A DNA stretch of 64,000 nucleotides from the NCBI GenBank assembly GCA_944989445.1, contig CALYLW010000348.1, positions 310,001 to 374,000 on the forward strand, read 5' to 3'. Below the pieces are notes generated by a model, which saw nothing but the letters and a program-made list of their open reading frames with translations, searched no databases and had not been told where the DNA came from. This stretch comes from Ampullaceana balthica. Its lineage: Eukaryota; Mollusca; Gastropoda; Lymnaeidae. The position numbers and the translations under genes were made by a program. Positions 3,361-63,056 of this stretch are shown here, one piece after another; within the stretch, counting starts at the first letter, position 1, and each line of letters starts with the position of its first letter.

Positions 3361-3370
3361 TAATTTCTAC

Positions 3371-25300: not shown

Positions 25301-28300
25301 TTTACAAATATTTAGACAATTTTCAAAAGAACAAATGTTCCTATCAATTTTAAAATATGATCTTCTGTTGGTCACTAGGTGTTAAAAAGTTTGCAAGAAA
25401 AATTGTAAAATGCATACGTGAACTGAAGAAAAATTAAAATTTCAAAGATATATGATTTCTAATTGTCTGCCTGATTTCAGCAAGGTCGCAGAGTAGACCA
25501 AATTGTAATTATATTTGATTTGGAAAACTTTGGGATGAAGCATTTATGGAAACCTGGTAAGTTTTTTTTACCTTTCTTCACACAACCCTTCTAATGTAAA
25601 GTATAGTTTTAGTTATTACTTTTTTACCATAATAAATGAGTTGCTTATGCTACTACAATGGATTGTTATAAGTGACACACTGTGAAACATTCTTTGTAGC
25701 TATGTGATTATGAAGTGACCAAAAAATGATTATTTAAATAGATTATTATGTGGTTTGTTTCATACAGAAACTTTTTCTTGATAAATACCTCATACAAAAC
25801 CTGTTAATACTAATTTCACCCAACTGAAATTCTTTTGTATTTTCTCTACAGGTGTCGATATATTTACAGAAATTGTAGCCATATTTGAAGATCACTACCC
25901 TGAGACTTTGAAAAAAACCTTTGTTATAAATGGTAGGATCCTAAAATGATTACCTCACAAAAGTTATCTGTGTATTTATTAGACTTATACTGAAGCATTC
26001 AGATAAATTATTGTAACCATTCTGAGGGGTAGTAGTAAATTTTTTCTCAAATACCTTTTAAAATTTTATGAAACTTTCTCATTAAAAAAACAACTACATA
26101 TTTTCATCGTTTAAAACATGTCTTTTAATTTTGTCTAAGTATTTCCCATTCTTAATTTAACATAAAATTTTTTTGAATCCCTTTAAGAGTAAAACATTTT
26201 TTTTTAAACTTAAAGGAAATTTTTTAATTTTATCTTTAAACAAAATACAGTGTACAAGTTTTTAAATTTCCCTTAAAATTTCAAGTTGAATTACCAAACT
26301 CCTAATTGACGGCTCAGTAAAAATAACACAAGGGAACACTGTACTCTGAATAAATAAAGATCCATTAGTTGTTCATATTAAACTAAGAATATTTATTGTT
26401 TAAATCAATTACTTATGCTGCCATTCTGTTGTGTTTTATTTTTCAGCACCAAAAATATTTCCCCTTGCTTATAATTTATTGAGGCCATTCCTGAGTGAAG
26501 AAACACACAGGAAAGTTACAGTTTGTGGATGTGAGTTTGAAGTTTGTAGAGATCTAAGTTACAGTTTGTGGATGTGAGTCTAAAGTTTGTAGAGATCTAA
26601 GTTACAGTTTGTGGATGTGAGTCTAAAGTTTGTAGAGATCTAAGTTACAGTTTGTGGATGTGAGTCTAAAGTTTGTAGAGATCTAAGTTACAGTTTGTGG
26701 ATGTGAGTCTAAAGTTTGTAGAGATCTAAGTTACAGTTTGTGGATGTGAGTCTAAAGTTTGTAGAGATCTAAGTTACAGTTGATTCAAGTCTAACATTGA
26801 ACCAGGCGTCAGTTTATTTTTTGTTTGCAAATTACATAAATATTATCCCCATTTTGCACTCCTCAATATCTAGAATTTTAGTCTCAGAAATTATTTTCAA
26901 TATGGTGATAAGCTACCATATTCAGGAGTATATATTATTTATGTGTATAGACTGAAACTCTCTTTGAATGAGTAAGAAACATAACTTGAATGTACTGACT
27001 CTCTTCTATCACCCTTCAGCCAACTACAAAGAAACTCTGCTACAATTTATTGATGCTGACCAGTTGCCTGCACACTGGGGAGGGACATGTGTTGACCCAG
27101 ACGGGGATCGCAGATGTCCATCTAAGGTTTAATAAGTATTTTAATGCTATCAGGCGGATATTTATGACATAAGGAATTGGTCTAAAGATTAAGCTCAGTA
27201 AAATTTAAAATTAACTTGTTTTCGATGTCGAACAAATATTACCTATATATTAGTATTGATTTCTGTGAATAATTTTAGTAAAAGATTTTTGGATGAAGAT
27301 GAAATATATAATCATCGGCTATACATAAAGCTTTATTTTAATGTTTCGTATCAGAATAACAATCAGTTGGTTTTTTTAATTTAGATTATTCCTGGCGGAG
27401 AAATTCCAAAATCTTTCTACCGCCAAAATGACTTGGCTGATGTCAGTGGATTTACAGAGGCTACCATTGGTCGTGGCTCAACACTACAGCTAGACTTTGT
27501 CATTGATAAAGTTGGATGTGCAATAAGGTCAAGTCTTGTTTTGTTTTTGTTTTCCCATGATAACAAACCAAGTTCACTTTTTCATTAACTGATAGTAGCT
27601 TCCGCATCATTCCGTCTCGTGAGACAAGGGTGCATCACCGTTGGGTTGGGTTGCATTTTCTTGTGTGATTAACTAATAGTATGTCATAGGCTAAAGGTTT
27701 TTAACCAGGGTTGCAGGTGGTGATGTCAAAGGTTGTGGCAAGACCAAGAAACTTCATTTAAATTTAGTTTGAAATTTTAAAATCGTTTTTATCGTGTGGG
27801 GTGCTGAAAATTTTATCTTGAATTCATGGTGGTGCTGCTTATAACTTTGGAAGCACTGCCTTGTGGAATTGCTTGTATAAACTATCAGCTAAAATCGTCA
27901 TTTAATGGATCACGAATGATCAATGTTTGATTTTGACTTTTTATCAACTTTTATATCCAATAAATCTATGATTAATTGTTTTAGCTTTCAAAATACTTCA
28001 TTTTTTTTTAAAATCAGGAATTTTAATCAATTGAATATATGCCTCTCTTCTTAAATTATTGAGTGATGTCATATTCCATAAAATGATTGTATCCAAATAC
28101 TAAATATTAGTTATAAATTAAGATTTACTTACCTTAAAAACTAAATTACATTCAATCACAGTGGCTCCCAACCTGATGCAGGAGCGGCCTTTGGGGGTGG
28201 CAGCTGGGGCAATTGTCCCAGGCCCCCCGCTCAGGGGGGCCCTGTGTTTCAGACTTGAGACTATATTTTAGTAACAAAAGAGCCGGCAGATATTGCACTA

Positions 28301-30235: not shown

Positions 30236-31166
30236 CCAACAAGTTGAGATACGGAATCAAGTTCAATTATTGTAAGTCAGGATCACAGAAAATATTGCCC
30301 TGATGTCAAGAAGTAATGTTGTCAGTACTTGTTATCATGGATATAATTGAAACAGAAAGTTAAGTAGTGATATTATAATGAATTTCAACATATTTGTATC
30401 AAACTAACACACAAAACTAGTGAAATGAAATTTTTATAGTACACAGAGAAAATGAAAACTTCTTTACATATAATGTTTGAGAGTAAAAATGTTAAAAATC
30501 CAAAGTAAAATTCATTATCTTAATGGTTGCATGTGATCTATAAGGGGTAATTCATTTATTTTTAAACTCGAGGCTCATTTTTAATGATCTAAAAAAAATT
30601 CTAAACAGTCAAAGTCAGTGTCCCACAAGACATGATTAGGGATGACACAAACACTGGTAAAGTAGTTTATAGCAAATACCAAGGATCAATATGAACCTGT
30701 TTGATGCGGACCGCTCAGAAATGTGTACCCTCTGAGTTGCCAGTTAAAATAAAATGGATTTAACCCCACGTTATGTACCTACTGATATGACCATAGATAA
30801 ATGTAGACAGAAATAAATATATATTGTGATATAATGAGACAAAATAAAGTGAATTAAATTAATAACTGATCTGATTTATGTTTAATTATTTTGATTTTTT
30901 CCAATGCTTTATTTTCATGTCAATTTTGAAATGTCCATTTAAGGCAAGGCCTCATTTTAACCATGACCATAACCAAACAATCAAAAAATGTTGCTAATTA
31001 AATAAAGAATGCACACTGTCCATTTAATAATCAAAATATTAGATAGTTCCCATAATTGTCCACATAATAGCCAAAATATTAGATAGTTCCCATATTTGTT
31101 CATATAATAGTGAAAATATCAGGTATTTGTCCATATAATACTTAATAATAGTCAAAATATCAGGTA

Positions 31167-31791
31167 CCGTATATACTCGAGTATAAGTTGATCTTGAGTG
31201 TAAGTCGACCCCCTAACATGTCACTTGATAAGTGGAATTTTACATTTCTTCAACTATCACTAGGGTAAACTCATGGTGTCAGCCGTGTGTATATATCTGA
31301 ATTAGCTACACACACTATGGTTTCACAGTAACATATCAGTTATATAGTATAATTATTTTATTTTTATTTTTTTATTTTTATCAATACAGACGCTCCTTCT
31401 ATGCAGAAGATAGTTGCGTCCACAGACCATGACAGATGATCTGTTGGCAAGTGATGCAGCATTCACAGGCCACGGCTTTGTGGGTTCCACGCATTACCCA
31501 GCCGCCTAACTACATGTAGTGTTAGGTACCCATTCGGAGCGGGATGACTCAGGGACGCCCTAGGCCCCGGGAACAAACCCTTGCCTTCACACGGATTCAA
31601 ACCCGTGACCATCGGTACGACAGTCCAGTGCGCTGCCACTCGACCACCGCATAGTCTGATATAAATAAACTATATTAACTTACCGTAATAATTTAATTTA
31701 TAAAATGAGTTACACATGGATAAGTCAATCCCCCTGATTTTTTAAAAGAAATTTTGAAGAAAAAACTCTACTTATACTCAAGTATGTATGG
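31167..31791. mobile_element. TA-flanked MITE with CCGTATATACTCG ends, copy 1
   Basis: Left CCGTATATACTCGAGTATAA, right reversed CCATACATACTTGAGTATAA, each flanked by TA. Subterminal GTAAGTCGACCCC. It sits in the 38-bp minisatellite and carries a SINE inside. A second copy is at 33731-34301. Confidence 0.75.
31353..31651 (-). mobile_element. tRNA-derived SINE, copy 1
   Basis: Minus strand: tRNA-like head GCGGTGGTCGAGTGGCAGCG and a B-box region CGGGTTTGAATCCG, a central domain (ACTACATGTAGTTAGGCGGC), then a tail ATAGAAGGAGCGTCTGTATT and an A/T-rich end. The tail matches the 3' end of the LINE at 39981-40953. It has about 22 bp near GTTCCCGGGGCC that copy 2 lacks. Confidence 0.88.
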
Positions 31792-32093
31792 TAGTTCTCA
31801 TATTTGTCCATATAATAGTCAAAATATCAGGTAGTTACCATTTGTCTATATAACTGTCAAAATATCAGGTAGTTACCATTTGTCTATATAACTGTCAAAA
31901 TATCAGGTAGTTACCATTTGTCTATATAACTGTCAAAATATCAGGTAGTTACCATTTGTCTATATAACTGTCAAAATATCAGGTAGTTACCATTTGTCTA
32001 TATAACTGTCAAAATATCAGGTAGTTACCATTTGTCTATATAACTGTCAAAATATCAGGAAGTTCCAATATTTGTTTAGATTAATAAGTAAAC

Positions 32094-38225: not shown

Positions 38226-38233
38226 GTATTAGA

Positions 38234-39483: not shown

Positions 39484-39491
39484 ATCTAGGT

Positions 39492-41916
39492 CAGTGCTAC
39501 TCAAAGTGGTGGTCCGAGGACCATCAGCTGCCGGTCCGCAGAGATTATACAGATAGGGGAAAAAAGCACATACAATTTAAAAAAATTATAATAAAATAAA
39601 TTATATTAATTTCAATAACAATAAATTAATGTTATTTTTGCGTGTTAATGTGAAACAGAGGCGAGCTTTGAACTGGCTCATACATTAAAAATAGATCTTT
39701 AAGATTTCTTACACCAGCATTTGGTACTTGCCATCTGCTGATGTAAACAAAATGTCCGACTGAAAATAAATTTAAATGAACAGATTAATAGCTTACATTG
39801 ATTTCAATGAAATATTTAGTAAATTTAAATGAATATAATAAATATAATTAATTTTTTTTTAAAATGTAATTTTGACCATGTCACTATGTTTTGTTTGTTG
39901 TTTTATTTTATTTATTAATTATTATTTTTTTATTATTTTTTTACTTAATTTTTTTTACAAACAGCATTGATGTGTTGATTTTATCTTATCTTATCTTATC
40001 TGTTTACAGACGCTCCTTCTATACAGAAGATTATTGCGTCCTACGCTTATCTATGGTTTGTGTTTAGTCCTGCATTTTTATTAGAGATTTAAATGTTGAT
40101 AAAGTGTTGGTTTTTCCTGGATTCTTCAGGCAACCCATTCCACGCCCGAATTCCGGACGGGAAGAAGGAAAACTTGTATGTGTTTGTTCTTGCATACGGA
40201 ATAAGAAAGGTGTTTTTATCCTTATGTCTATCTGAGGGTTGTATTAAGTTATCTTTGTGTTGTATTTCTAAATTAGAATTAATTGCTTTATGTATGATTA
40301 CTACTTTGCTCTTGGTTCTTCTATCCTCTAGTGTTTCAAGGTTTAATGATTTAACTAATGGTGTTATTCTTGTCAGTTTTGAATATTCTCCAGTAATGAA
40401 TCTGGCAGCTCTTTTTTGAATTTGTTCTAGTTTATCAATGTTTTCTTTGGTGGATGGGTCCCATACAGAAGATGCATATTCTAGTACAGGTCTCACCAAA
40501 GTGAGGTAGCATTTTAGTTTTATATCTCTATTACATTTGTTAAAGTTTCCTTTTTATAAAGCCTAAGGTTTTGTTTGATTTTTTAATAACTTCATTGACA
40601 TGGGGATTCCATGATAGTTTCTCATTTATTAAGACTCCTAAGTATTTTGCATCTTTAGTTTGGGTCAGTTCTTTTCCATGAATGTAATATTTTGAATTTA
40701 TTTGTTTCTTTTTCTTTGTTACTCTTAACAGTTGACACTTTTCTGGGTGGAAAGACATACTCCAGTTAGTTTCACATTTTATCAATTCATCTAAGTCTTT
40801 TTGTAAAATTTTGCTATCTTGTTCTGATTTAATTGTTCTATAGATTATACAATCATCAGCAAATAACCTAACTTTTGTACCTGTTGAGATGTTGTTGGGT
40901 AAATCATTTATATAAATTAAAAAGAGTAAGGGACCTAGCACAGTTCCTTGTGGATTTTATTTTTTTGAGATGATTTATTTAAAGTCTCAATAAGTATAAA
41001 CCAAAGTAAATGAACAATAAGCCATTAATGGTTAAGATTTTTCGTTTCAAAAATGTTGGAAGACATAATCTGTTTCCAAATATACCGAAATAATACAATT
41101 ATATCTGTAAATATATGGGTATACAAATAGGCACTATATTTTGTCAGTGAGAAAGTCACTTTATTTTTTAACTTAAAATAAATTTTTCTTTTTAACATCT
41201 GATGTGCATTACAATTTAACTGTCAGTAATCGCTGCAACACAAAGCACCGGTACAAATATATTTTTTATTTTATTTTATCAATTGCGCTGTTCTTGAGAA
41301 TATTTAGGTGACTATTTAAGAAGTTAAGAATTGTTCATTTATTTTAAACTCTTTTAAAATTTCATTTACAATGCTGTGAGACATATTATTATTAACTTGT
41401 GTTACTTTAAAAAATACACTTAGTAACTTATACATAACTTTACAGAAAATTAAATTCAAATAAAAATACATTTTAAATATTGCCTCTATTTATAATTACA
41501 GAAACTATGAAATTAGTATATTAATGTAAACTATAGTAGATTTATCTTTGTTAAACTACACGCATCAAAATATTAATTCTACTAACATTTAGAGTGGTAC
41601 GCCACTTGACTTCGATCCCTAAATATTTAGGGATACAATGAATTTCAATGGTTTTCATGCTTATCGGTTAACGTTAACTTTAAAAACTTTTTTATATGTA
41701 TTTTTTTTACCACGTTTTTATTAACACGCTTTCGTTGGGCATTGTTTGTCCAAGATTTTTTCAAATCTGCCAACGTAAAATTGAATCACTTCTGATGGTC
41801 CTAGAGATCTGAAAATTTTACCACAGATAGATCTTGGATGACAAAAAATTACCGGTCCCTGGTGCAATGGAAAAACTCCTGCCGGTCCGCCATACTAAAA
41901 AGTTTGAGAAGCACTG
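39492..41916. mobile_element. Non-autonomous hAT element with perfect 8-bp TSD, hosting a LINE
   Basis: Ends CAGTGCTACTCAAAGTGG and, reversed, CAGTGCTTCTCAAACTTT; both subtermini contain GCCGGTCCGC. ATCTAGGT is repeated exactly at 39484-39491 and 41917-41924. Without the LINE (39981-40953) it is about 1.45 kb. No transposase segment was recognised. Confidence 0.9.
39981..40953 (-). pseudogene. 5'-truncated CR1/L2-like LINE (copy A) inside a hAT element
   Basis: Minus strand: starts inside the RT domain (GPLLFLIYINDLP, FADDCIIYR), runs through the thumb and C-terminal tail (EYASSVWDPSTKENIDKLEQ) to the 3' UTR and (GATAA)n end. A one-base gain in a T run near 40550 breaks the frame relative to copy B, and a second break follows NGLPEESRK. 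GATTTTAT flanks both ends (39977-39984, 40953-40960), consistent with target-site duplication. Over about 490 bp it is nearly identical to copy B. Confidence 0.9.
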
Positions 41917-42123
41917 ATCTAGGTCATGTTATCTTCTATAATTAGTTGTCTAATTTATTCTAATGCATTTAAACGCCTCACTGTTGTCACAGACAAGCAG
42001 TACTTGTCAGAGACATTTCTTTTTTTTACCCCCCCCCCTTTTTTTCCCCCTTTCGATACAGCCAAAAAGCAACAACTATGGCTTACGGTACACATTACAT
42101 TAATTACTTAAAAGTTTATGACT

Positions 42124-45100
42124 TCACTTTTGTGAGGCACCTACAGAAGATGCATATTCTAGTGCAGGTCTCACCAAAGTGAGGTAGCATTTTAGTTTTA
42201 TATCTCTATTACATTTGTTAAAGTTCCTTTTTATAAAGCCTAAGGTTTTGTTTGATTTTTTAATAACTTCATTGACATGGGGATTCCATGATAGTTTCTC
42301 ATTTATTAAGACTCCTAAGTATTTTGCATCTTTAGTTTGGGTCAGTTCTTTTCCATGAATGTAATATTTTGAATTTATTTGTTTCTTTTTCTTTGTTACT
42401 CTTAACAGTTGACACTTTTCTGGATGGAAAGACATACTCCAGTTAGTTTCCCATTTTATCAATTCATCTAAGTCTTTTTGTAAAATTTTGCTATCTTGTT
42501 CTGATTTAATTGTTCTATAGATTATACAATCATCAGCAAATAGCCTAACTTTTGTACCTGTTGAGATGTTGTTGGGTAAATCATTTATATAAATTAAAAA
42601 GAGTAAGGGACCTAGCACAGTTCCTTGTGGAACTCCTGAGTTAACCTTTATTGGTGCAGATTTAGATCCATTAATTATTACAGTTTGCTCCCTGCCCAAA
42701 AGGAAGTCTTGGATCCAGTGATGTAAGGAACCTGAGATTCCAAAGTAGTTAAGTTTTTTAAGTAAACTAAGGTGGTGAACTTTGTCAAATGCTTTTGAGA
42801 AGTCTAGTAATATTGTATCTATTTGATCATTTTTGTCCAAGCCTTTTGATAGTTCATCTATTAAACCTATTAATTGTGTTTCACATGATCTGTTTTTTCT
42901 AAAGCCGTGTTGATGTGGGCATAGGGCATTATATTTGTCAAGGTGGTTAACTATTCTACTATATATTATGTGTTCTAGTAATTTACAGGTGATACTAGTA
43001 AGTGATACAGGCCTGTAATTACCAGGGTCTGATTTATCCCCTTTCTTAAAGAGTGGACTTACATTAGCTAATTTCCAATCCTGGGGCACTTTACCCTGGT
43101 TTAGAGAGGCTTGAAAGAGAACTACAAGGATTGGGGACAGTTCATTGCTTAGTTCTTTTAATAATCTTGCAGGCAAATCATCTGGGCCAGTAGCTTTGTT
43201 TATTTTTAAGTTTTTTAGGAGTGAATGTATACCTATCTCATCTACAGTTATGTTACCTATTTCCTCCATTTTATTTAAATTTATTAAAACTTCCTTGTCG
43301 CCTGAGGCAGAAAAAGATGATGCAAAATATGTGTTAAGGATATTAGCTTTAGTTTCATTATCATTATAGGTTTTATTATTTGAGCCTTTTAGTGTGGCTA
43401 TTCCTGAAGGTTCCATTTTTTTAGATTTGATAAAGGACCATAAGTTTTTATTGTTATCTTTGGTAATTACATTGTTTATATATTCATTTTGGAGGTTCCG
43501 ACTAAGTTTTTGTGTCAAGTGTTTAATCTTTAAGTATTTTTTGTGTATCCTATATGAATTGGTAGCTTTATATTTCTTAAATAAGTTCTCTTTTAGTTTG
43601 CATAGCTTTTTCAATCTAGAATTGAACCAGCATTTGTTAATTTTATTTGATGTTAGTTTTGTTGGAACATTCTCATCCATTATAGTTTTTAGATTTGTTT
43701 TTATATCTTTCCAAATTTCTTCTACTGGGCTATTTGTGTTAAATTTACTTAGGAAAGTTTGTTGGAAGTTAGCCGCTGATTGGTGTAGTTTTATTGAATT
43801 ACATTTATTCCAAAGATAGATTATTCTTCTAGGTATCTTATTAATTTTAGTTTTTATTGTATTGGTGACCCTAACAATATCATGGTCGGACAGTCCTGGA
43901 ATTATTTTATAGTCTAACACTAGTCCTGGTCTATTTGTTAGGAATAAATCTAGTGTTTTATTTTTCCTTGTTGCTGTTTTTACTATCTGTTCTAGGTTTA
44001 TGTTGTTTATAGTGTCTAGGAAGTGTTCATTAATTTCTTTGTTAGTTTGATGGTTATCAATTGTATAATTTTTCCAATTTATATCTGGAAGATTAAAGTC
44101 CCCCATAATCCATAGAACTGCATTTTTATTATTCTCTTTTATGAAAGTTAATTGACTACAAAGATTGTTCATGTATTCTGGGTTTGTATTCGGAGGTCTA
44201 TATATACTGCCTACAATAAGTGGGGATGAGTTTGGTGTAATTATTTTACAATAAATAGACTCTATATTAAAATTTTGCTGTGTAGTAATTTCTTCAGCTA
44301 TGATATTTGATTTAATTGCAAGTAGCACTCCTCCATAATTGTCTGATCTGTCTTTCCTAAAAATATTATAATTGGTGTTTAAAATCTCAGAGTTATATAT
44401 GTTGGGGTTCAACCAAGTTTCAGAACCAGCAATTATGTCTGGTTCTTCTGTTTTTATAAGTAGTTCTAAATCTGGAATTTTATTTTTTAAGCTTTGGAAA
44501 TTAACTATTAGTGTTTTGAGAATGTTTTGATTATTATTATTATTAGATTTTTTATGGGTAATTTTATGGGTTTGTGTGGTTGGTTTCATTTTATCTAGTG
44601 GTTTATTTATAAAAGGATTAGCCAAAACACTGTAAGAGTTTGTGGTGATAAGGTCCTTATAGTTAAATAAATCTGAACTGATTTGGGGCAACCCACAATG
44701 TATGCAGTGCCAAGATGCATATTTATTTCTTAGGCCTATTGCTTTGTGCTTTGGTGTGTTAGAATGCAGGCATGCAATGTGGTACCATTCATTGCAGGTG
44801 TCACACTGAATGGTTCCTTGTTTGGTAGTGCATGCCTTAATACAAATTTGACATTTAGATGATACTGGGCCTGGGTTAAGTTCTATGTCGCCTGAGAGGA
44901 GCAAAATTAAGATTAAGTGTTTTTGCTTATATCTACATATTTTATGTTTCCATTGTTTGAAGGAGATTTCCTTTATTGTGCTTAAGATAGAGGTGTAGTC
45001 AGTGTGCTTTGTGTTGTGGTGGTTTATAATTATTGATATATTACTCTGATTTTTAGGATGTTTGTTGGTTGACGTTAATGTCCTTAAAAGTAGTGTGGTT

Positions 45101-45129
45101 ATTACTAAAACTAAGATGAAAATTCTCAT
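42124..45129 (-). CDS. CR1/L2-like LINE polyprotein (copy B): leader, 2A, PHD, APE endonuclease, RT
   Basis: One uninterrupted 1001-codon ORF. Residues 1-20 form a hydrophobic leader (MRIFILVLVITTLLLRTLTS). Residues 81-88 are DIELNPGP, the 2A ribosome-skipping consensus DxExNPGP. A C4HC3 PHD finger follows (C93, C96, C109, C112, H117, C120, C142, C145). The APE-type endonuclease spans about 205-430, with SETW 236-239, GDFN 343-346 and SDHD 414-417. The reverse transcriptase spans about 680-960, with LLDFSKAFD, SGVPQGTVLGP and catalytic FADD 864-867. After residue 996 the frame leaves the family: copy A continues VWDPSTKENI, whereas here it ends GASQK, so roughly the last 130 residues and the 3' UTR are lost. 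The element's 5' end lies near 45160-45190. Enzymes look intact, but the copy lacks the tail it would need for its own mobility. Confidence 0.93.
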   Translation of the reverse strand: MRIFILVLVITTLLLRTLTSTNKHPKNQSNISIIINHHNTKHTDYTSILSTIKEISFKQWKHKICRYKQKHLILILLLSGDIELNPGPVSSKCQICIKACTTKQGTIQCDTCNEWYHIACLHSNTPKHKAIGLRNKYASWHCIHCGLPQISSDLFNYKDLITTNSYSVLANPFINKPLDKMKPTTQTHKITHKKSNNNNNQNILKTLIVNFQSLKNKIPDLELLIKTEEPDIIAGSETWLNPNIYNSEILNTNYNIFRKDRSDNYGGVLLAIKSNIIAEEITTQQNFNIESIYCKIITPNSSPLIVGSIYRPPNTNPEYMNNLCSQLTFIKENNKNAVLWIMGDFNLPDINWKNYTIDNHQTNKEINEHFLDTINNINLEQIVKTATRKNKTLDLFLTNRPGLVLDYKIIPGLSDHDIVRVTNTIKTKINKIPRRIIYLWNKCNSIKLHQSAANFQQTFLSKFNTNSPVEEIWKDIKTNLKTIMDENVPTKLTSNKINKCWFNSRLKKLCKLKENLFKKYKATNSYRIHKKYLKIKHLTQKLSRNLQNEYINNVITKDNNKNLWSFIKSKKMEPSGIATLKGSNNKTYNDNETKANILNTYFASSFSASGDKEVLINLNKMEEIGNITVDEIGIHSLLKNLKINKATGPDDLPARLLKELSNELSPILVVLFQASLNQGKVPQDWKLANVSPLFKKGDKSDPGNYRPVSLTSITCKLLEHIIYSRIVNHLDKYNALCPHQHGFRKNRSCETQLIGLIDELSKGLDKNDQIDTILLDFSKAFDKVHHLSLLKKLNYFGISGSLHHWIQDFLLGREQTVIINGSKSAPIKVNSGVPQGTVLGPLLFLIYINDLPNNISTGTKVRLFADDCIIYRTIKSEQDSKILQKDLDELIKWETNWSMSFHPEKCQLLRVTKKKKQINSKYYIHGKELTQTKDAKYLGVLINEKLSWNPHVNEVIKKSNKTLGFIKRNFNKCNRDIKLKCYLTLVRPALEYASSVGASQK
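44866..44889 (-). other. 2A-like ribosome-skipping motif in the LINE ORF
   Basis: Encodes DIELNPGP, preceded by the hydrophobic stretch HLILILLLSG. Skipping would fall between Gly87 and Pro88, separating the N-terminal leader peptide from the PHD/endonuclease/RT protein. 2A-like signals at this location are known from other APE-type non-LTR elements; activity here is inferred. Confidence 0.8.
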
Positions 45130-45189
45130 TTTCGGGTTAGTGTTAGACTAGGTTTAATTTTATTGAATGTCAATGAAAAATATTTCCAC

Positions 45190-46039
45190 CACCACCGCCT
45201 CTAATAGTATTATTGTTTTATTATTATTATTACCATTAATACTAAAAAAATGATACTAGTTAAGGCGTTATTGGGTAATTGTTCAGATATAGTTCTAAGT
45301 GTCCCCCCCCCCAATCACTATAGCCGCCTGTTTCATTATTTTAATGTGTGCTCCTCTAGAGTTCTTCATTGAAATCTGAATATTGTTGAAATAAATCCTG
45401 ACATGCCGAAACAAGTCGTTATTGTTCGTGACAGGATAAGGTACCCCCCCAAACCCACCCCAAACCACTACCACCTCCTTCACACCCTTCAAATGTATCC
45501 AAAACATAACTCCAGAGTCCACTCACAGCCTGTAGGAAATAAAGACATCAGAGACGCCACTAGGGTTGGTGTCCCCCAGTGAGGTTATAGGTCAAGGTGT
45601 TACCCCCCCTCACAACTTACCCCATAGACCTCCAACGAGTCTGCAAGTGCCAAATAACGAGAGAGAATTTTCCTCTTTGGTATCACCCGTTATGATGGCG
45701 TCACCCAGTGCGGTCCGCACCCCTACGCACCCCTTAGTGACTTTCCTGGCAAACATGAAAAGTTAATTATTTTATCAATTAATTGCTAGACCTGAAATAA
45801 TAACATTCCAGATACTAACATTCCAATTTGTTCGACTGGCTGGTTTCGTGGCTGTTGAAGTTTTGTTTTGATTGAGGGGAAGGGATAACACTGCATATGC
45901 AATTATAGAACCAATTATCACATCATTTGTGCAGGCCTGGGTGTCGGTGGTGTGTCCACGTTCGTCCACTGTCTACCAGACGCCGGGTCATTTTCAGACG
46001 TGCGTGAGGTCTCACAGTTGTTTTCAGTGTTCGTTCAAG
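45190..46039. other. Region between LINE copy B and GPx; possible GC-richer repeat
   Basis: The segment 45545-45770 has imperfect inverted ends (GCCACTAGGGTTGG and, reversed, GTCACTAAGGGGTG) and C-rich interior; it may be a MITE but I found no second copy. Poly-C runs near 45303 and 45444. Bases 45900-46039 should contain the GPx 5' UTR. No separate gene supported. Confidence 0.4.
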
Positions 46040-49000
46040 ATGGTGAACCAGGTTATAATGAAGATGGTGCTGCTGAGTTTTCTGATGGTCTCGGTGGACT
46101 CCGGTACGTGAATTAAAACGTATAGATTTAAAGAGTCGATTAGTTATATTTAAATAAGATCACGCGACAATAGTCAACAAAGTGTCTTCTCGGGATAGAT
46201 TCAAAGGAAGTTACTAAAAGTAAACGTGGAAACTCTGTCTGTGTGTCTTTCTCTCTCTCCCTTTCTCTCCCCCTCTCTCTCTCTCAAAAATTTAGCTATA
46301 TAAATACTTAAATGGAATGATTAATTAGCTTAACTTGAATACATTTTTTTTAAAGTTATTATAATAAGTGTAAGTAATAGTTCTATAGGGATTGATTTAG
46401 TGCTGATTATTAAAGCGTAATTATGTCGCGCTTCATGGTTACACGGTTGAAGGATTGGGGAGTTCATCGATTTGTTGATGTTTTGTTTTCTCAGGAAGAT
46501 ACTACAGCCGATGTGAACCAGAGCCAGGTACCTCAGTCTTGGAGTTCTCAGTGACGGACATCCACGGGAATGTGACCGAGACCGTGTCGAGCTTAATCTC
46601 TGGAACATACAGCCTAGTGATCAACGTCGCCTCATTCTGTCGTGAGTATAACGCTGGAAACAAGCGCTGCGGGCAAACTCCTGTCTTGGGGGCCAGATGT
46701 GGCCCTAATTACTTCCCTTGTTCACATATTTTAATGTAACCTCGTATGCCTCATTTTGGCGCCTTGTGCTTTTGCACTCGGGTACATGCATACTCCACTA
46801 CCACCCCCCCCCCAAATCGTTACACCACTGAGATATGGCCAGTCTGTAATTCCATTCTGGCCAGAGCCCACCAAGAACTTGTTTTATTAAATAGAGTCGG
46901 CCTGATTAAATGTTGACGTTAAAATTAAATTTGTTCACGCTGTTCTCGACCCAGGCTTTGTCCTAGGCAGTGGCGTGGCTAGGGATTTGTAGGGAGTTGG
47001 GGTCCCGGGGGCTTGGCCTCTTTGGGGGCCCTTCATACATGGCGTTGCCGTAATATTTAATGTAAAAAAATATTTCGGACACCCCTTTGGGGGCCCCCTC
47101 AAGTGGGAGCCCCCCCTCAAGTGGGAGCCCAAGTCGGTGTTATTACCACTATAAAATACTGTGTATTCTCTTGTTTTTAGTATGTCTGTATTTTTCCATC
47201 GAATTTCCTGCAGTGCTGCGATGGATATCTTGTATTTATTCAATTGGATTATAAGATTGTTTAAGGCTCCTGCTCTGAACAGGCTTCGAACATTCCATGT
47301 CGCAAAACTAAACTCGCGTCCATTTACAGGCGTAGGTCGATTTCCATTGATATCAGTCCGGGTTTTATTCAGTTGATTGGCTTTCGTAACATGTTTTTTT
47401 TTACATGGCTGGGTTGTTAGCCCTGCGCACAACCATCTGGGGGGTTGCCCCTCACAGCTCTCTGGGTAGCTGCCTTTGTTCGGGTTGGGTCCCTTAGCCT
47501 TTGTGGATCCCTCCACTTCCTACAAGGCAGTAGGGCTGATTTTGGTCCACCCCGGGTATTTTATTTCCCCGGTACCCTCCATATCTGGTGGGCTTTCCCC
47601 TATCCGCCGGCTGGGGAGGCGCTCGATAGAAGATCAGCATCTCCCACGAGCATCCACTTACTACAGGCGGAAATTTTGTTTCTTGGTCTTTATTTAATTA
47701 CGGACACTTGGTTCCAACATACAACCCAAATTACCAAGTATGGAGAGCAGAAGCAGAGTGCAGCTACCAAGTTTAGCTTAAAGAGAAATAAGCAACATCT
47801 TCTGGGTCAGGTACTTGAAGGTTCCGTGTGTGCAACGGTCAATTGGATTTTTGGTGTTCACGGACATACCAATAGATTTGTGCAACTTATTCGGGCCGGG
47901 TGTTCTTTGTTTGTTATGTTCTTTGTTATGTTCCTTGTTTATGTTCTTTGTTTTGTTACGTTAATTGTTTCTTCTTCCACAGCCTTATACTTATAGGGTT
48001 ACTTTTTTTTTGGAAGCCAGAAATAAAGTGAAGACACTTTTTGAAATTCACAGGTTTGACCCTTCAGTACCACGATCTGAATCAGATGCTGACCAAATTC
48101 CCCAGCGACCATTTCAGCGTCCTGGCCTTTCCCAGTGACCAGTTCGGCCACCAGGAGCCGGGTGTCAATGGGACAGAGATTCTCAACTGTCTGAAGCACG
48201 TCCGGCCCGGAAAAGGCTTCACCCCGTACCCGGGATTAAACTTAATGCAGAGAGGGGCGATCAACGGAGAGAATGAGATCCCTCTCTATACGTACCTCAA
48301 GGTAAGTTGAGGTTGTTTATATGTTCCTATACGTACCTCAAGTAGGGTTACCAGGTGGCTGTCTCAAAAATACCGGACACTAGTGTCGAATTTTGTCGAT
48401 GGCACAATATTTCAATGTAAAATGTCCGGTATTGCTTCCATTTTTCAACTGGACAAATAACGATAATACCGGACAGTCCGGTACAAAACCGTACATCTGG
48501 CAACCCTAACCTTAAGGTAAGTTGAGGTTGTTTATATGTTCCTATACGTACCTCAAGGTAAGTTGGGGTTATTTATATGTTCCTATACGTACCTCAAAGT
48601 AAGTTGGAATTGCTTAAATGTTTCTGGGCGGGATTAAAGTGATATATTAGCTTATATGCGCAGAGGCTTAACTGGGTTTTTGACGCCCTCGGCTAATTTA
48701 TTTATGGCGCCCTTTATTTAAATAAAAATTTAAAAATTAGTGATTTAGCGGCGCCCTTTTTGAACTGGCGCAGGCCGGCGCCCTTGGAAACTGACCCCCA
48801 ATGCCAAGCCGTTGTTACGCCACTTTGTAGGCGGCAGTAGTCGGGAGGATAAAATTGAAGCACAAGATATAGTTCAATTCCTAACAGCCCAGTTTCTATC
48901 TCACATTGTAATTTGCAGCCACGTCGATGGGATTTTAGAAGCTACTCTCCCGGTCATTTAGAAAATAATTAAAACAAATTTTATGTGAAGAATATTTTTC

Positions 49001-49718: not shown

Positions 49719-52105
49719 ACTGCTCTATAGCTGACAGATAGTATTTAGCTGACGCTCTATAGCTGACAGACACTCTTTAGCTGACGCTCTATAGCTGACA
49801 GACACTCTTAGCTGACGCTCTATAGCTGACAGACACTCTGTAGCTGACAGACACTCTATAGCTGTCAGACACTCTTAGCTGACAGACACTCTATAGCTGA
49901 CGCTCTATAGCTGACAGACGCTCTATAGCTAACAGACACTCTATAGCTGACAGACGCTCTATAGCTAACAGACACTCTATAGCTGACAGACGCTCTATAG
50001 CTGACAGACACTCTATAGCTGACAGACACTCTATAGCTGACAGACACTCTGTAGCTGACAGACACTCTATAGCTGACAGACGCTCTATAGCTGACGCTCT
50101 ATAGCTGACAGACGCTCTATAGCTAACAGACGCTCTATAGCTGACAGACACTCTATAGCTGACAGACGCTCTATAGCTGACAGACACTCTATAGCTGACA
50201 GACACTCTATAGCTGACAGACACTCTATAGCTGACAGACACCCTATAGCTGACAGACACCCTATAGCTGACAGACACTCTATAGCTGACAGACACTCTAT
50301 AGCTGACAGACACTCTATAGCTGACAGACGCTCTATAGCTGACAGACACTCTATAGCTGACAGACACTCTATAGCTGACAGACACTCTATAGCTGACAGA
50401 CACTCTATAGCTGACAGACACTCTGTAGCTGACAGACACTCTATAGCTGACAGACGCTCTATAGCTGACGCTCTATAGCTGACAGACGCTCTATAGCTAA
50501 CAGACGCTCTATAGCTGACAGACGCTCTATAGCTAACAGACGCTCTATAGCTGACAGACGCTCTATAGCTGACAGACACTCTATAGCTAACAGACGCTCT
50601 ATAGCTGACAGACGCTCTATAGCTAACAGACGCTCTATAGCTAACAGACGCTCTATAGCTGACAGACGCTCTATAGCTAACAGACGCTCTATAGCTGACA
50701 GACGCTCTATAGCTGACAGACACTCTATAGCTAACAGACGCTCTATAGCTGACAGACACTCTATAGCTAACAGACGCTCTATAGCTGACAGACGCTCTAT
50801 AGCTAACAGACGCTCTATAGCTGACAGACGCTCTATAGCTGACAGACACTCTATAGCTGACAGACACTCTATAGCTGACAGACACTCTATAGCTGACAGA
50901 CACTCTATAGCTGACAGACACTCTGTAGCTGACAGACACTCTATAGCTGACAGACACTCTATAGCTGACAGACACTCTGTAGCTGACAGACACTCTGTAG
51001 CTGACAGACACTCTATAGCTAACAGACGCTCTATAGCTGACAGACACTCTATAGCTGACAGACACTCTATAGCTGACAGACACTCTATAGCTGACAGACG
51101 CTCTATAGCTGACAGACACTCTATAGCTGACAGACGCTCTATAGCTGACAGACGCTCTATAGCTAACAGACACTCTATAGCTGACAGACGCTCTATAGCT
51201 AACAGACACTATATAGCTGACAGACACTCTATAGCTGACAGACACTCTATAGCTGACAGACACTCTATAGCTGACAGACACTCTATAGCTGACAGACACT
51301 CTATAGCTGACAGACACTCTATAGCTGACAGACACTCTATAGCTGACAGACACTCTGTAGCTGACAGACACTCTATAGCTGACAGACACTCTATAGCTGA
51401 CAGACACTCTGTAGCTGACAGACACTCTGTAGCTGACAGACGCTCTATAGCTAACAGACGCTCTATAGCTGACAGACACTCTATAGCTGACAGACACTCT
51501 ATAGCTGACAGACGCTCTATAGCTGACAGACGCTCTATAGCTGACAGACACTCTATAGCTGACAGACGCTCTATAGCTGACAGACGCTCTATAGCTAACA
51601 GACACTCTATAGCTGACAGACGCTCTATAGCTAACAGACACTCTATAGCTGACAGACGCTCTATAGCTGACGCTCTATAGCTGACAGACGCTCTATAGCT
51701 AACAGACGCTCTATAGCTGACAGACACTCTGTAGCTGACAGACACTCTATAGCTAACAGACACTCTATAGCTGACGCTCTATAGCTGACAGACGCTCTAT
51801 AGCTAACAGACGCTCTATAGCTGACAGACACTCTGTAGCTGACAGACACTCTATAGCTAACAGATGCTTTATAGCTGACAGATGCTCTATAGCTAACATA
51901 TACTTTATAGCTAACAGTGTAACAGACGCTCTATAGCTGACAGAAGCTCTTTAGGTGACATACACTCTATAGCTGACAGATGCTCTATAGCTCACAGACA
52001 CTCTATTGCTGACAGACACTCTAAAGCTGACAGATGCTCTATAGCTGACAGACACTCTATAGCTAACGGTCACTTTATAGCTGACATACACTCTATACTC
52101 TATAT
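49719..52105. repeat. 18-bp satellite array, about 2.4 kb, after the GPx stop
   Basis: The basic unit is CTCTATAGCTGACAGACA, roughly 130 copies, with three main variable sites (GACACT/GACGCT, GCTGAC/GCTAAC, TATAGC/TGTAGC). Shortened 12-bp units (CTCTATAGCTGA then CGCTC) recur with similar neighbours near 50095, 50467, 51670 and 51776, suggesting higher-order duplications. The edges (49719-49860 and 51850-52105) are diverged. The long minus-strand ORFs with repeating SYRVSV are by-products of an 18-bp, stop-free period. Confidence 0.95.
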
Positions 52106-55037: not shown

Positions 55038-55045
55038 GACCAGAC

Positions 55046-55209: not shown

Positions 55210-56994
55210 GTCCAGGCATACACTGAGATCAGCAAAGGCAGTCTTTTATGTAATATATTTATGAGACGTAACACACCAGTTGAATCTATAACATGTTTTA
55301 GTGTAAAAATAGACATACCCATATGGTGAACCAAATTAATGAAGAAAATTTTAGAAAACAGTATCCCAGATAGCAAACAGAATCCCAGAACTGGTTGTTG
55401 CATACTGTATGATCCAAACCCCATTCTTCCCCTTTTAATATTAATTAATTTAGATCTATTTAACCTAACAATGACAAGTAAATATGCATGATAAATGAAC
55501 CTATACATTTAAGCCTTTACAATAATAGAATTCAAATCATTGAAGACCAAATAAAACTATTAAAAGCCTACAAGTGATTTTTTCAAAAACTTTAAAAAAT
55601 CAGCTGTGTTTGTCTTGTCCATGTGTGATGAAGAAGAAGAAAAAAATGGACAAATATTCCTTAAATTATAATCAATGAGATTGTGACACTTTTGATGACA
55701 TCTATTGGAATCAAATTATTTCAAGCAAGTTTCAATCAACAACAACTCATTTGGATGTATAAAGAAACTCTACATTTCTTCCATTTCTGTGTATTGGAAG
55801 TCAAGGCATTGGATTCAACCGAACAGACTCTTGATACTGAAGTTGTATGAATAATGAGATACACGTCCACAGATTTCTTTGGACCAACTATCAGGGGATA
55901 ATCCCATAATCCTATAAATGACTGACGTGATAATATTAATACATTGACAAATACATAATTGACAGCTGCTTTGGGAGAGTGACAATGTCATTTTATTTTC
56001 ATTTTATGTATAGCTGAAAATAGCAAACATTAATCTTTCCAATGGGAGGCCGCTATGAAACCAACGGCCAGGTCTCTAAAATTTCCCAGCTAGCCATATC
56101 AAGTGTCAAGTAATTTAACATGACATGTCACAGGTAATCTAACACCATTGAAAATAAAGGCAAATAATTTCCAGACTTGAGAACTAAATACATGTATTAA
56201 TATGAAACAAACTATTTTTTTGTACTATTTTTCTACATTTCTGGACATTCATTATGATAATAAAGCTGTACTGAGTCAAAACCATTGTGTTAGATCACCA
56301 TCTGTAAAGCATTCCGCCTCATTAGTGCTTAAGGGCTTGGATTGTAATCTAAGTGGCTTAGTATAGCTCAGAATATTTATTTCCTTTGTTAAAATTCCAA
56401 GGAAAGAAAAAATCTTTATAGTATAGTCAATTTTTAATACTGTGGTATACATTAAATCGATAGCAAAATGTTCATTTAACTAAACAAGCAATCAGTAACC
56501 TGAAATTCTTGATGAATTCATTCATCTATTTCATTACTATACCCACACCCTTGCCTGTGGATAATTTAATAGTAAAATATTTTCTAAGCAAATATCATTT
56601 ACCAAACTGATGTTTGCTCAGAATATGGAGGCAGAGCCCTGAAGGAAACAATTTGTAAATAAAAAAAATAAGCGGTGTCTAAGCTTCCTGCAATTAATAA
56701 TTTACATGTTCTTATTTTACAAACCATTTTAAATTCTAAAAACAGAATTAATAAATCAGCCTGCTGAAATTTACAGTAAATAAACAAAGTACAATGACAA
56801 AAGCAGCTAATGTCTTAATCATGTATTACATGTCATGGTGTTCACTTAAAAAAAGAATTTTTTTAAAATGACATGAATTAGAAGTTGGTATCTTGCTAAC
56901 AATGGTATTCATGTTTTTCTTACAACTTCAATGCAAATCAGCATCTGAGTTTAAACTAAGAAATCTCATACTTCCTGGCCCCAGATTGCACATT
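55210..56994. other. AT-rich region, possible 3' UTR or flank of the HIP1-like gene
   Basis: About 1.8 kb with no coding segment that I can support. It lies directly downstream (minus strand) of the last recognised HIP1-like exon. Confidence 0.4.
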
Positions 56995-59900
56995 TCACTC
57001 CCTTGTGGTCGGTTGAACAGTTTGAAGTGGGGACCAAGGCATTTCTTCTGAAACAGCCTCACGCAGTCTGGTGTTAATGTCCAACAACTCATCATCTTTT
57101 CTGGAATACAAGAAGATGAAAACTAAAGTTAGCTCTGGCATTTATTAATGGAATTTAAAGCAGGTTTTTTCAGCATCAGAGATGTCATGGGTAAATCTAG
57201 GAATAAAAAGTCTTTAAAATTTTTTTTAGTTTACTTCTGTTGATAAATTGTTTATTTAAATAAATGTTGACCTATACAAGATCATCATCAGTTTAAAAAA
57301 AAGTATTTTATTAGTTGGTTTATGAATTAAACATCAAATACTGCTGTAATGAGATTGTCAAATAATTGCTAGCTATAAACTAATTACTCTATTCTTGCCG
57401 ATAACAAATTGAACAATAGCTGTACACTAACAAATGACAATCTGGCAAAAGTAGAATATCTATGCAATCTAAAGTTATTACAATTTTAACAGACCAAAAA
57501 TATTTTGGTCAATGATTACGATAATAATACAGATCTCGTATTAGCTTTAACTCTTTTTATTTTTAAAAAAAAATGTACATGTATATATATAAAAAAAATT
57601 CAGATTTCTACTTCTATTGATTTGACAATTGAAATATTTATTATTAATTATTTTTGCAATTGAGTTTAATTTTTTTAAAATGTTGACAAGAGAAAGAGTC
57701 TCAAGTTGTCTATTCAAGATAAAATATGAAAATATGAATAAAATCTCATGTATTTAATTATGCAGCCTTAAAAAAGTATTAAATATATATTAACAACATG
57801 CAGCAAATTTTTCCAATCAAATGCAATCATACAAATTTCAAAACGTTTCCATTCTTTTACAAAACACAAAAATAAATGCCCTAAAATTAAAAAATAAAAT
57901 AAAATCAAATATATGAACACAGATAAACCCCAAATTGCAGTTCATGTGTATCAAATTTATATCACCCAAAAACCTATAAAGAAAAAAAATGAAAGTTGAT
58001 GGCAAAACAATTATCAGGCAGTTTTCATAATGAATGTTTAACAAAAATATTATTTTTAAAAATGAAGCTCAGCTTATATGTCATGATGGCTAAAAACTTT
58101 CCAAAATCTTCTTTTTACAAGATTTAGTTACATTAAATATATATATGAGAGTTAAGAACTGGCAGCCACACATGCAAGTTGTACCAGTCATTCAAGCAGG
58201 TTTTTTGTTTGTTTGTACACATCAAGTTTAATTTCAGACTTGCATGCAGCTTGTACCACACAGCTGTACATGCAGCTTGTACCTCTCTAAGTTTTATTTG
58301 TACAGTCACTCATGCACATTGTACCACACCGCCACACATGTGGTAGCACAAAGATAACCAAACATGCAGCACATTTAACTTTACACAACCATGCAAAGTT
58401 TCACACGCAGCCGGCTGGGAAAATCTGATTTCTCAATTTTTTTCTCTTCTACTTACCTGATCAGTTCGTATTTTTTTTTGGTTCAAAGCCCATAGCTGTT
58501 AATTTTGGCATGAATACCTCGTCGACATGTGCACAACAGATCTAAACTTACATAATGTCATTGATATAGCAGCTGACCTGTGAACTACTGATCTAACTTA
58601 AATGATGTCAGATAAATATAACAAGTTTGTTAAATGGTAATAGCATTGGCATTGTAAATAGAAAATGCATTACAATGCTGACCTCATGAACTGACTTCTG
58701 CTGGCTATGAGACAAAGAATCGTTGTCAGACTCATACCCCCCTCCTCAACCCTTCCTGCTAAGTTTTATCATAATTGATCAATATGAAAAATTCTATCCC
58801 AACTGTGTAAAATCAGTTTGCAAAAGCCCCCAGCGAAAATATGTTTAAAAAGCAGTGCATAAAAAACGTTTTAAAACATGCTTAAATAGCTGTTTGAAGA
58901 ATTTATTCTGTATTTAATGTCCATAACTATTGATGTAAATTGTGTCATATTGTGTAAGTAATTTTAATATACGGTTGAAATTTTATAACAAACTTGGAAC
59001 TGATAAAGAAAGTTCTTGACATATTGTTTTTCTTAGGTTCACTATAACATTCACCTTTTTAATATTCACTATTACTATACTACATTGAAAATTAAAGAAA
59101 GAATGATTATTTCTGTTATTTTTACTGTAGCTTAAGAAATGATCTTAGTTCACAGTATAAGATCTTAGTTCACAGTATAAGATCTGTATAATACAAAATT
59201 TGTTCTTATCGCAGCTGCATCCTCCCCATGTATAGAAATTCCTTAAAAAATAACATTTGAATTCCACCCCAACACAAAACCACTGACAAATACAAATATG
59301 TAATTTTTAAAAGGACATTGTATGTATGTATGTGTATTTTCAATATTAATGCAGTAGTCATAGAAAAGCATATTTGAACAAAATAATAATTATAAGCAAT
59401 GTTTGGAGACCATTTGCTGAAGGCCGACAGGAATTGATTGTTAGTGCAGAGTGATGAACAGACAACAGGACGCTGTACAAGTGGTTAGACTTTTGCTTTG
59501 ATTTACATAAATATTTTTTCACTGTAAACTGTAAATCTACAAAAAAAAAGTGAGTTAAATCACGGTGAAAATTTTATAAGTTTAATGTGAGAAAAAGTTC
59601 TTGAAGGAAAATATTCAATTTATATAATAAATTTGTAAAATTAATTTTTTTAAAAACTTAGTGATATGAAGTAATAAAATCTCTTCTGAAATCCAGGATG
59701 AAAAGTTTTTGCCAATACATAAACATTTTGCTGTAATGAACAATATAAAATTACATCGTAATACTGTAGAAGCTTTTAACTGATAAAAAAAATATTAGTG
59801 CATGGAACAACATGAAGGAACAATTAGTACATGGAAAAGCCCTGATAATGAGAAATGTCCCAAAATTATTCCATAAAATAAGATGACATAGTAGCCAATC

Positions 59901-62636
59901 TATATTAGGATCACTAAAGTGCAGTCAGCATATGTGTAATCTATGGCTGTCAGCATACAATTTAAAAAAACAACTATGTTTAATGAGCACAAGGCTGGAC
60001 TAGGGCTGCAACAAATAATGTACAAAAAATGCAATAATGCAAATCTCTGAAATTAATGAGTGCTAAAAGAAATGGTGGCAGACACTAAACTCTGGCACAT
60101 CTTTAATTAAGGGGCATAACACAACTGTTTGAGGATGTTTCTTTGGTCTGCAGTAATTACTAAGTGCTTGAGGCCTCACCTAAAAAAACCCAGACGAGAA
60201 AATTCATCCTTTGTATTTGACTCAGATAATTTCTAACGGATATTGGAGCCTACCATGTCTTCTAGCACAAACGCCTGGAAATGTAAGCCGCATGAAAGAT
60301 CCCACATTGCCTCGGCACAAAAGTATTTTAACTTGAGCTTAATTACACAGTTTAAATGAAAAATGGGAACCCCTTCAAGGAGCTGCATTAATTTACCCAT
60401 CAGATCTGATTATTAAATTGTATTATTTTGCTAGCTGGCTTACATGACCATGACAAAATGTCATATCTAAAGATAAATATGAATTTGTGTGCAACATCCG
60501 AACTATGAGCAAATTATAGGAAAATAATTTCAAAGAGTTACTGATGCGAACAGTTAAACACCACAGATGCTCATTTCAGAGGGGGGGGGGCGTAACTCAC
60601 TTCTAAATCATCGGATGATGATTTGCCATCCAGCGGAGCAGTGTCATCGGTTATCAACTCTCCAAACTAACAACAACGACAACAGTGAATGAGTTGAGAT
60701 GAAAGGTGATCATTTATCAACAATAACAATAATCGTTATGGCACAGAACAAATCATGCTACAGTCTGATTTCATCTAGTGAGGAATTTTAATTAGTCAAT
60801 TAACAAAAAATTCACCTGATGGCAATCAATACACAGAATATTGTATTCTTAAGTCAGTTTTCTTTACTGTTAATAATTACATTAATGAAGTCAAATGTGA
60901 AATAAAATTTATAAGATCGTAATCATTACATTAATCTCTCATCCTAATTTATGAAATGTTTAAATGTGAAGCACAACTTACCCCCTTGGTAAATCAATAT
61001 TTCTGACAGGACATGTAGTTATGCTTTGACAAATGGGAAACTTCCTTGCTTGTGACTGCACTTTTTTAAATTGCTTGTAAAATGAAATTGTACTTTAGAT
61101 CAAATTAAACAGATATGTTTCGACAACCAGTAAATATTATATTTTAATATATTATAAACATTGTGGTGGGACACCTTCAGTGTCCTGCCAATCCCCGATT
61201 GACTTGTTACACACAATTAATGGCCGTACCCAAAATAAAATCAATATAAATTACCAATGTTGTAAACGGCTATGTATGTTAACTATGTATGATAAACGGA
61301 AGTACATATAAAAAAAAACTTTCCTGAGTTTATATGGCCCTGCTTGTAAATGACTATCAATATAATAAGCCATATAAGTAAATGGCTGTGTATGTTAATT
61401 GTTTGGCAAACAGCAGTAGAGGATCAACTGTGGCCTGTGTTGATAAATTTCCCATCTGTCAATGACTATAAATTATGAACAGCTATGTATGTAACTAACA
61501 CTTGCCTCCCAAACACAGGCCCAACACACACAGTACATTACCTCATTAACCTCCCAACACACAGTAAATTACCTCATTAACCTCCCAACACACACAGTAC
61601 ATTACCCCATTAACCTCCCAACACACACAGTACATTACCCCATTAACCTCCCAACACACACAGTACATTACCCCATTAACCTCCCAACACACACAGTACA
61701 TTACCCCATTAACCTCCCAACACACACAGTACATTACCTCATTAACCTCCCAACACACAGTAAATTACCTCATTAACCTCACCACACACAGTACATTACC
61801 TCATTAACCTCCCAACACACAGTACATTACCTCATTAACCTCCCAACACACACAGTACATTACCTTATTAACCTCCCAACACACACACAGTACATTACCT
61901 TATTAACCTCCCAACACACACACAGTACATTACCTTATTAACCTCCCAACACACACACAGTACATTACCTTATTAACCTCCCAACACACACACAGTACAT
62001 TACCTTATTAACCTCACCACACACACAGTACATTACCTTATTAACCTCCCAACACACACAGTACATTACCTCATTAACCTCACGTCACACAGTACATTAC
62101 CTCATTAACCTCCCAACACACACAGTACATTACCTTATTAACCTCCCAACACACACAGTACATTACCTTATTAACCTCCCAACACACACACAGTACATTA
62201 CCTTATTAACCTCACCACACACAGTACATTACCCCATTAACCTCCCAACATACACAGTACATTACCTTATTAACCTCACCACACACAGTACATTACCCCA
62301 TTAACCTCCCAACATACACAGTACATTACCTCATTAACCTCCCAACACACACAGTACATTACCTCATTAACCTCCCAACACACACAGTACATTACCTCAT
62401 TAACCTCACCACACACAGTACATTACCTCATTAACCTCCCAACACACTCAGTACGTTACCTCATTCACCTCACCACACACACACTATGTTACCTCCCAAC
62501 ACACACACACACAGTACATTACCTCATTAACCTCCCAACCCTCAGCCTCTCCTGCCAGGCTGTAGTGTTGTTTTCTCAACTGTCCAAGTTTCTTTCTCTC
62601 CTTTTCCAAGTTGGACTCAAGCTCCATCACCTTGAT
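56995..62636 (-). CDS. HIP1/HIP1R-like adaptor, C-terminal exons only (partial)
   Basis: HIP1-family proteins link clathrin coats and phosphoinositides to actin through an ANTH domain, a coiled coil and a C-terminal I/LWEQ module. Exon 62532-62636 (or to 62523) encodes IKVMELESNLEKERKKLGQL, then RKQHYSLAGEAEGWE, the conserved helix following the I/LWEQ core (compare LGELRKxHYxLAG..EGWE of vertebrates). Exon 60601-60666 follows in phase 0: FGELITDDTAPLDGKSSSDD, then LE, with a good donor gtgagt. The last acceptor is at 57101. In the spliced frame it would end two codons later (KR, stop). A different frame of the same exon stays open for about 34 codons to 56995 (KDDELLDINTRLREAV...). All upstream exons lie beyond 64000. 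The HIP1 assignment is firm for the first exon; the 3' end is tentative. Confidence 0.75.
57101..60600. other. Last intron of the HIP1-like gene, little structure
   Basis: About 3.5 kb of AT-rich sequence. A possible 39-nt exon on the minus strand (about 58457-58495, preceded by taacag, followed by gtaagt) reads LWALNQKKIRTDQ in phase 0 but has no family support. A 21-bp doublet of TAAGATCTTAGTTCACAGTA lies near 59141-59185. Confidence 0.4.
61505..62531 (-). repeat. 33-bp minisatellite copying the HIP1-like exon donor
   Basis: On the minus strand each unit reads GTTGGGAGGTTAATGAG, gtaatgtactgtgtgtgt; the first part is the end of the exon at 62523/62532. About 31 units, with variation in the (GT)n part, GAGG/GGGG and TAAGG. 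Standard units are 33 bp (11 codons), so read-through is open over parts of the array (61546-61758 encodes a repeating CWEVNGVMYCV), but shorter or longer (GT)n units shift the frame. Confidence 0.92.
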
Positions 62637-63056
62637 CTATGGAGACAATTAGAGACAATGAAATGACACTATGGAGACAATGAAATGACACTATGGAGAC
62701 AATGAAATAACACTATGGAGACAATGAAATGACACTATGGAGACCATGAAATGACACTATGGAGACAATGAAATGACACTATGGAGACAAAGAAATGACA
62801 CTATGGAGACAATGAAATGACACCATCGAAACAATTACAGAGGCAATGAAATGACACTATGGACACAATGAAATATGAAATAACACTATTGAAACAATCG
62901 CAGAGACAATGAAATGACATTATAGAGACAATGAAATGACACCATGGAAACAATTCCAGAGGCAATGAAATGACACTATGGAGACAATTAAATAACACTA
63001 TTGAAACAATCACAGAGACAATGAAACAACACTATGGAGACGATGAAATGACACTG
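62637..63056 (-). repeat. 22-bp minisatellite copying the HIP1-like exon acceptor
   Basis: On the minus strand the unit is GTCATTTCATTGTCTCCATA then GT; the exon's own acceptor is TTGTCTCCATAG. About eleven copies of the CCATAG acceptor-like end occur (plus-strand CTATGG at 62637, 62669, 62691, 62713 and onward). The distal part is more diverged (CCATCG, CTATTG). Confidence 0.92.

Follow-up and report, generated by a model that had tools for sequence, protein, structure and literature searches.

Minisatellite-like duplications over exon-intron boundaries have been described in amphioxus, where they were named mirages in Adh3 and also reported in the globins BflGb6 and BflGb9, in troponin C and in PGBD5. 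The passages concerned (PMC3087553, PMC3902484) report them as harmless to regular splicing, propose them as a source of new introns, and describe boundary-spanning minisatellites from amphioxus only. The arrays that we found in a pulmonate snail share with these mirages, as those passages present them, the position over a 5' or a 3' boundary and the varied unit lengths (10-72 bp in Adh3), and they differ in that their rate was sampled (9/142 junctions), in their bias towards donors, and in a filled and empty pair of related genes. Intron gain by tandem duplication, as in the potato RdRp, is a second related process, and according to the passages on it (PMC4974935) what the two share is that a tandem duplication runs across splice signals and, in potato, also over an intron-exon boundary; the snail copies lie within an existing intron. 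Our literature searches, with subscription papers mostly outside reach, found no boundary-spanning minisatellites in molluscs, and the available passages on conotoxin introns (PMC3862624) and on gastropod hemocyanin introns (PMC7931591) contain nothing on such arrays, the word 'repeat' being absent from the latter. The phenomenon is thus a known one, and what is new is its occurrence in a snail together with a first small estimate of its rate.

The window, by which we mean the whole analysed stretch of 64,000 nucleotides, is C348:310001-374000 of the Ampullaceana balthica assembly (1.097 Gb, 3363 contigs). Its SEC14-like protein showed 95% identity to a Lymnaea stagnalis protein and at most 80% to the next among the relatives listed. 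To describe the array load of the genome, 20 random stretches of 10 kb (200,000 bases) were sampled, and 77 arrays with a period of 15-200 and a score of at least 100 covered 43,928 of these bases, so that 22% of the sample is minisatellite; the seed rate, as unit bases per ancestral base, was 1.76%. Pervasive tandem repeats are also known from the slug Deroceras laeve, in whose genome TRF masks an additional 28.39%, and the passages that give this value (PMC12506671) are silent on splice junctions, which the snail arrays described here span. We consider it probable, at roughly 0.7, that tandem duplications across existing junctions, mostly at 5' splice sites, grew into these arrays, that the copy touching the exon probably remains the splice site in use, and that the arrays are of the same kind as the amphioxus mirages.

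Arrays at exon boundaries in the window

All four arrays listed in the first-pass annotation were recovered by TRF and direct reading of the letters. The SEC14-like gene model has 12 exons and a complete ORF of 415 aa, with every intron GT-AG, and its protein is collinear with SEC14-like protein 2 (PDB 1o6u, which we take to be the human protein) at E 2.5e-128, the exon 8/9 junction being crossed gap-free. Exon 8 occupies 26447..26530 on the forward strand, and its native donor GGAT|GTGAGT, after 26530, was placed by the 12-exon ORF and by homology. A 43-bp x 6.3 array (99%) at 26513..26781 on the same strand spans this donor and takes in 18 exonic nt of exon 8, as seen by TRF and direct reading. 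All six GTGAGT copies are intact; units 2-6 are identical, and the exon-side unit 1 deviates at two intronic bases. Homogenised inner units beside a divergent boundary unit were therefore found in the array that was checked, and the boundary units of amphioxus BflGb6 likewise escape homogenisation in the passages describing them (PMC3087553, PMC3902484). When a 24-mer of the SEC14-like unit was searched through 1.1 Gb with at most 2 mismatches, it was found at six places, every one within its own array. This genome-wide result differs from a dispersed, introner-like family, in which the same sequence lies at many genes, and it agrees, as far as tested, with the first-pass statement that no single repeat family accounts for the arrays.

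The GPx gene model consists of four exons (248 aa), and its protein aligns to GPx6 across the exon 3/4 junction with E 7.9e-38. Exon 3 (48054..48301, forward strand) is followed after 48301 by the native donor CAAG|GTAAGT, placed by the 4-exon ORF and the GPx6 match. The opening 41-bp unit and a truncated copy after it (48286..48342, forward strand) cover 16 exonic nt of this exon, and the remainder of the array, 2.8 units by TRF, lies at 48509..48622 on the same strand. Between the two parts we read directly an inserted element of about 166 bp (48343..48508, ends approximate) with terminal inverted repeats TAGGGTTACCAG...CTGGCAACCCTA. Because this element sits inside the array, the donor array is the older of the two. 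Another array, 18 bp x 133 (49723..52097, TRF), lies off junctions, 3' of the GPx stop. At window 46632-46641, which we take for the active site from the general GPx motif, the codon is TGT (Cys) and not TGA (Sec).

The HIP1-like C-terminal exon (62523..62636, reverse strand) encodes the end of I/LWEQ and has a donor GAG|GTAATG at 62523 and an alternative GAG|GTTAAT at 62532. Its match to the end of I/LWEQ reached 26.6 bits, slightly below the cut-off of 27.5, and upstream HIP1-like exons in the flanking locus L007 match I/LWEQ with E 4.1e-21 and 3.2e-07; the HIP1-like exon at 57100, next after exon B, gave no in-phase join to exon B. A 33-bp x 31 array (61520..62539, reverse strand; TRF and direct reading) spans the donor, with the donor-containing pattern matched at 29 places, and it overlaps the exon by 17 or 8 nt, as set by the choice between the two phase-0 donors. 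A 22-bp array (62652..63055, reverse strand; TRF and direct reading) lies upstream of this exon at a distance of 15 nt. It had been described as a copy of the HIP1-like acceptor, and its units do share the intronic 13-nt ATTGTCTCCATAG with the 3' splice site, but the array ends 15 nt short of the exon and contains zero exonic bases. The arrays and the closed gene models bear out the other part of that description, namely that unit 1 holds the native donor in SEC14-like exon 8, GPx exon 3 and the HIP1-like exon, with 18, 16 and 8-17 exonic bases.

The C11orf54-like gene (3371..11912, reverse strand), whose name comes from the first-pass annotation, has 8 exons, one of which, exon 3, has a GC donor, and 0/14 of its junctions lie inside an array, as had been stated. 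The GC donors are AAG|GCAAAT at window 8818 and AAG|GCAAGT near 6722 of the myosin locus L031, the remaining placed donors of those genes being GT. Further off-junction arrays were found by TRF at 31017, 31802, 54417 and 63447. Window 4088-4636, 12400-13900 and 40100-45200 presumably represent transposable-element remnants, with reverse-transcriptase-like and zinc-finger/hAT-like reading frames. At L020 3682-3902, the unit of a 32-bp array is similar to the end of a dispersed element that also occurs in the window (TATACAGAAGATTATTGCGTCC); arrays may therefore arise from dispersed elements as well.

Array rates at donors and acceptors

For the tally, 142 junctions (70 donors and 72 acceptors) were placed by hand in the window, in the flanks L007, L008 and L010, and in the myosin-head loci L031-L035. 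The flank and myosin loci were chosen regardless of repeats, the myosin-head loci via Pfam rows only, and the tally left out L009, which has no known exons, and a few unplaced HIP1-like exons of L007. Arrays with a period of 12-250 were accepted, and the first GPx copies, split from their array by the inserted element, were entered by hand; TRF alone gives 8/142. Near-junction arrays at a distance of 30 nt in L010, 28 nt in L031 and 15 nt at the HIP1 acceptor were not counted. The results showed that units span the native exon-intron boundary at 9/142 junctions over all annotated loci, comprising 8/70 donors, three of them in the window, and 1/72 acceptors; the array counted in L008 overlaps just 3 exonic bases. 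As in amphioxus, both 5' and 3' boundaries are affected, the acceptor arrays being those of myosin locus L035 exon 1 (78 bp x 2.1) and of a predicted exon in the random stretch L014 (92 bp x 6).

In the window, a near copy lies within 1.5 kb of 8.6% of positions, and against this plain coverage null the 3/47 junctions in arrays are no excess. The seed rate is the fitting null, because each array consumes one unit of ancestral sequence and the rest is new. Outside the window, arrays lie on 6/95 junctions, which are 5/47 donors and 1/48 acceptors. Simulation gave an expectation of 0.67 for donors and 0.78 for acceptors (P 0.0002 for donors, 0.002 for all), and the random-genome seed rate gave 0.83 for donors and 1.67 for all junctions (P 0.0014 and 0.0067); donors carry arrays about six times as often as the random seed rate predicts, and those reading GTRAGT do so most often. 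When L035, a related copy of L031, was removed, 4/43 donors and 0/44 acceptors (4/87) remained, with P values of 0.0012 for donors and 0.016 for all by simulation, and of 0.0068 for donors and 0.068 for all by the random-genome rate, the all-junction test being weak without this copy. These counts agree with the first-pass annotation in that array edges recur at exon edges and that donors outside the window are hit more than a random-seed null predicts. A process confined to these neighbouring genes is contradicted, since such arrays recur on other contigs (L014, L028, L030, L031, L035).

In the random stretches, at least 5/77 arrays lie on predicted exon edges, and the full number may be higher. 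A coding score above 6 was used just to choose candidates, of which seven regions were examined. By this unspecific score, the edges of the 77 random arrays as a class were no richer in coding-like neighbours (21/154 edges, 14%, vs 17.8% of 3000 random positions), a control that slightly lowered our confidence in the preferred reading. In L030 one array covers the donor of an exon with an Fz domain (Pfam E 1.5e-9), in L014 two cover the donor and the acceptor of a single predicted exon, and in L028 the remaining two each cover the donor of a predicted exon. Of these five cases only the Fz exon is supported by homology; the L014 and L028 exons had no Pfam match above the cut-off and were called from an open reading frame together with coding score and splice signals. 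The predicted exon at L014 5568-6436 is flanked by acceptor- and donor-spanning arrays, and the HIP1-like exon by nearly the same arrangement. About 200,000 exons are expected per 1.1 Gb, and five random junction arrays by chance would require about 285 junctions per 200 kb.

Among the counted arrays, donors exceed acceptors (Fisher 0.017; an unplanned contrast with 9 cases), and GTRAGT donors make up 6/8 array donors vs 16/62 others (Fisher 0.0098; likewise unplanned, with 8 cases). PWM donors were in no clear excess in the units of the 77 random and 9 window arrays. In off-junction random arrays GTRAGT was present in 3/72 as against 6/72 reversed, which is no enrichment and rules out the motif alone as an array seed. 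Genome-wide, triple-AGGTAAGT patterns numbered 5045 vs 3672 in the reversed control, mostly in long arrays, and because this excess is only 1.37-fold, junction arrays are a small share of all arrays; beyond ruling out a large share, we judged the count uninformative.

Direction of change and rival explanations

The loci L031 and L035 are related myosin gene copies on two contigs, either sister genes or diverged alleles; their aligned blocks, which take in introns, range from 79 to 100% identity, with 94-95% in the two longest. At the exon-3 donor CCTGATACAG|GTCAGTTG, L031 has an array of 8 units and L035 a single copy, with flanks that are 95% identical upstream and 79% downstream. Since L035 has the same donor array-free, the L031 array grew from a pre-existing junction. 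In L032, at 2188-3615, there is a 44-bp x 32 array whose CTG|GTAAGT reads on the other strand from the myosin gene.

The same pair bears on intron birth through tandem duplication across AG|GT (Rogers model), which was proposed for the amphioxus mirages and is supported in other taxa according to the passages concerned (PMC3087553, PMC3443670). At the sole junction checked, no new intron lying between duplicated splice signals was found: L035 has the myosin intron and its donor without an array. The window introns, moreover, extend past their arrays. This route, which the first-pass annotation had raised, fails at the single testable junction and is the least credible of the explanations considered. 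The reverse order of events, in which exons captured older arrays and the splice site moved into the repeat, is very improbable too. In the SEC14-like and GPx arrays, the exonic bases of unit 1 code for conserved residues: KVTVCG, which aligns gap-free to SEC14-like protein 2 as well as to six relatives from gastropods, and YTYLK, which aligns gap-free to GPx6. Positive selection would have arrays retained because spare donor copies recruit U1 snRNP or yield alternative isoforms, and inner copies can indeed remain intact, as the SEC14-like array demonstrates. The next donor copy is in frame and stop-free in 3/12 donor arrays (HIP1-like L008, +30 nt; myosin L035 exon 4, +48; Fz, +45), but it shifts the frame or meets an earlier stop in 8/12, and the second copy in the remaining one, at L031 exon 4, has lost its GT. 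The array-free myosin copy has the same donor as its filled relative, and we regard such selection as improbable.

Chance deserves more weight, although we still think it unlikely as the whole account. By this explanation, seeds land everywhere in a minisatellite-rich genome, a few percent of them on junctions where they are tolerated, with no preference for exon edges. The 22% array content and the seed rate of 1.76% per base agree with it, as do the coverage null in the window, the ordinary coding-like surroundings of random-array edges and the all-junction P of 0.068 without L035; because so much of the sampled DNA is minisatellite, chance explains part of the pattern. It is opposed by the outside-window donors (5 found, 0.83 expected), by the five random junction arrays, whose required density of junctions is above expectation, and by the consideration that selection ought to reduce the rate at junctions and not increase it. 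Tolerance, with the first donor or the last acceptor left usable, had also been offered as an explanation, and it agrees with both biases, towards donors over acceptors and towards strong donors: if a strong first donor wins, mostly strong donors and few acceptors would be expected. Tolerance alone cannot lift the rate above random, so either duplication must be biased towards functional donors or selection must retain the arrays there. Taken together, the first observation of the arrays was confirmed, and its interpretation was partly supported.

Under the preferred reading of duplication across existing junctions, a duplication would start, or be retained, more often at functional strong donors than elsewhere, the array would expand and homogenise through slippage or unequal exchange, and selection would purge most acceptor-spanning and weak-donor arrays on account of mis-splicing. 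Splicing of each gene probably continues at the original copy, and surplus copies are therefore predicted to be removed with the intron. Gene predictors may misplace exon ends in genomes with such arrays. With several snail contigs, a rate, a donor bias and a filled and empty pair, a curiosity becomes countable, and two questions can be put to the test, one being whether splice sites act as hotspots of mutation, the other how the spliceosome chooses among identical tandem donors. More tentatively, functional 5' splice sites may be hotspots of minisatellite birth, with co-transcriptional duplication at strong donors; roughly one in ten donors would then have an array, and these could form a latent pool of splice sites for new isoforms.
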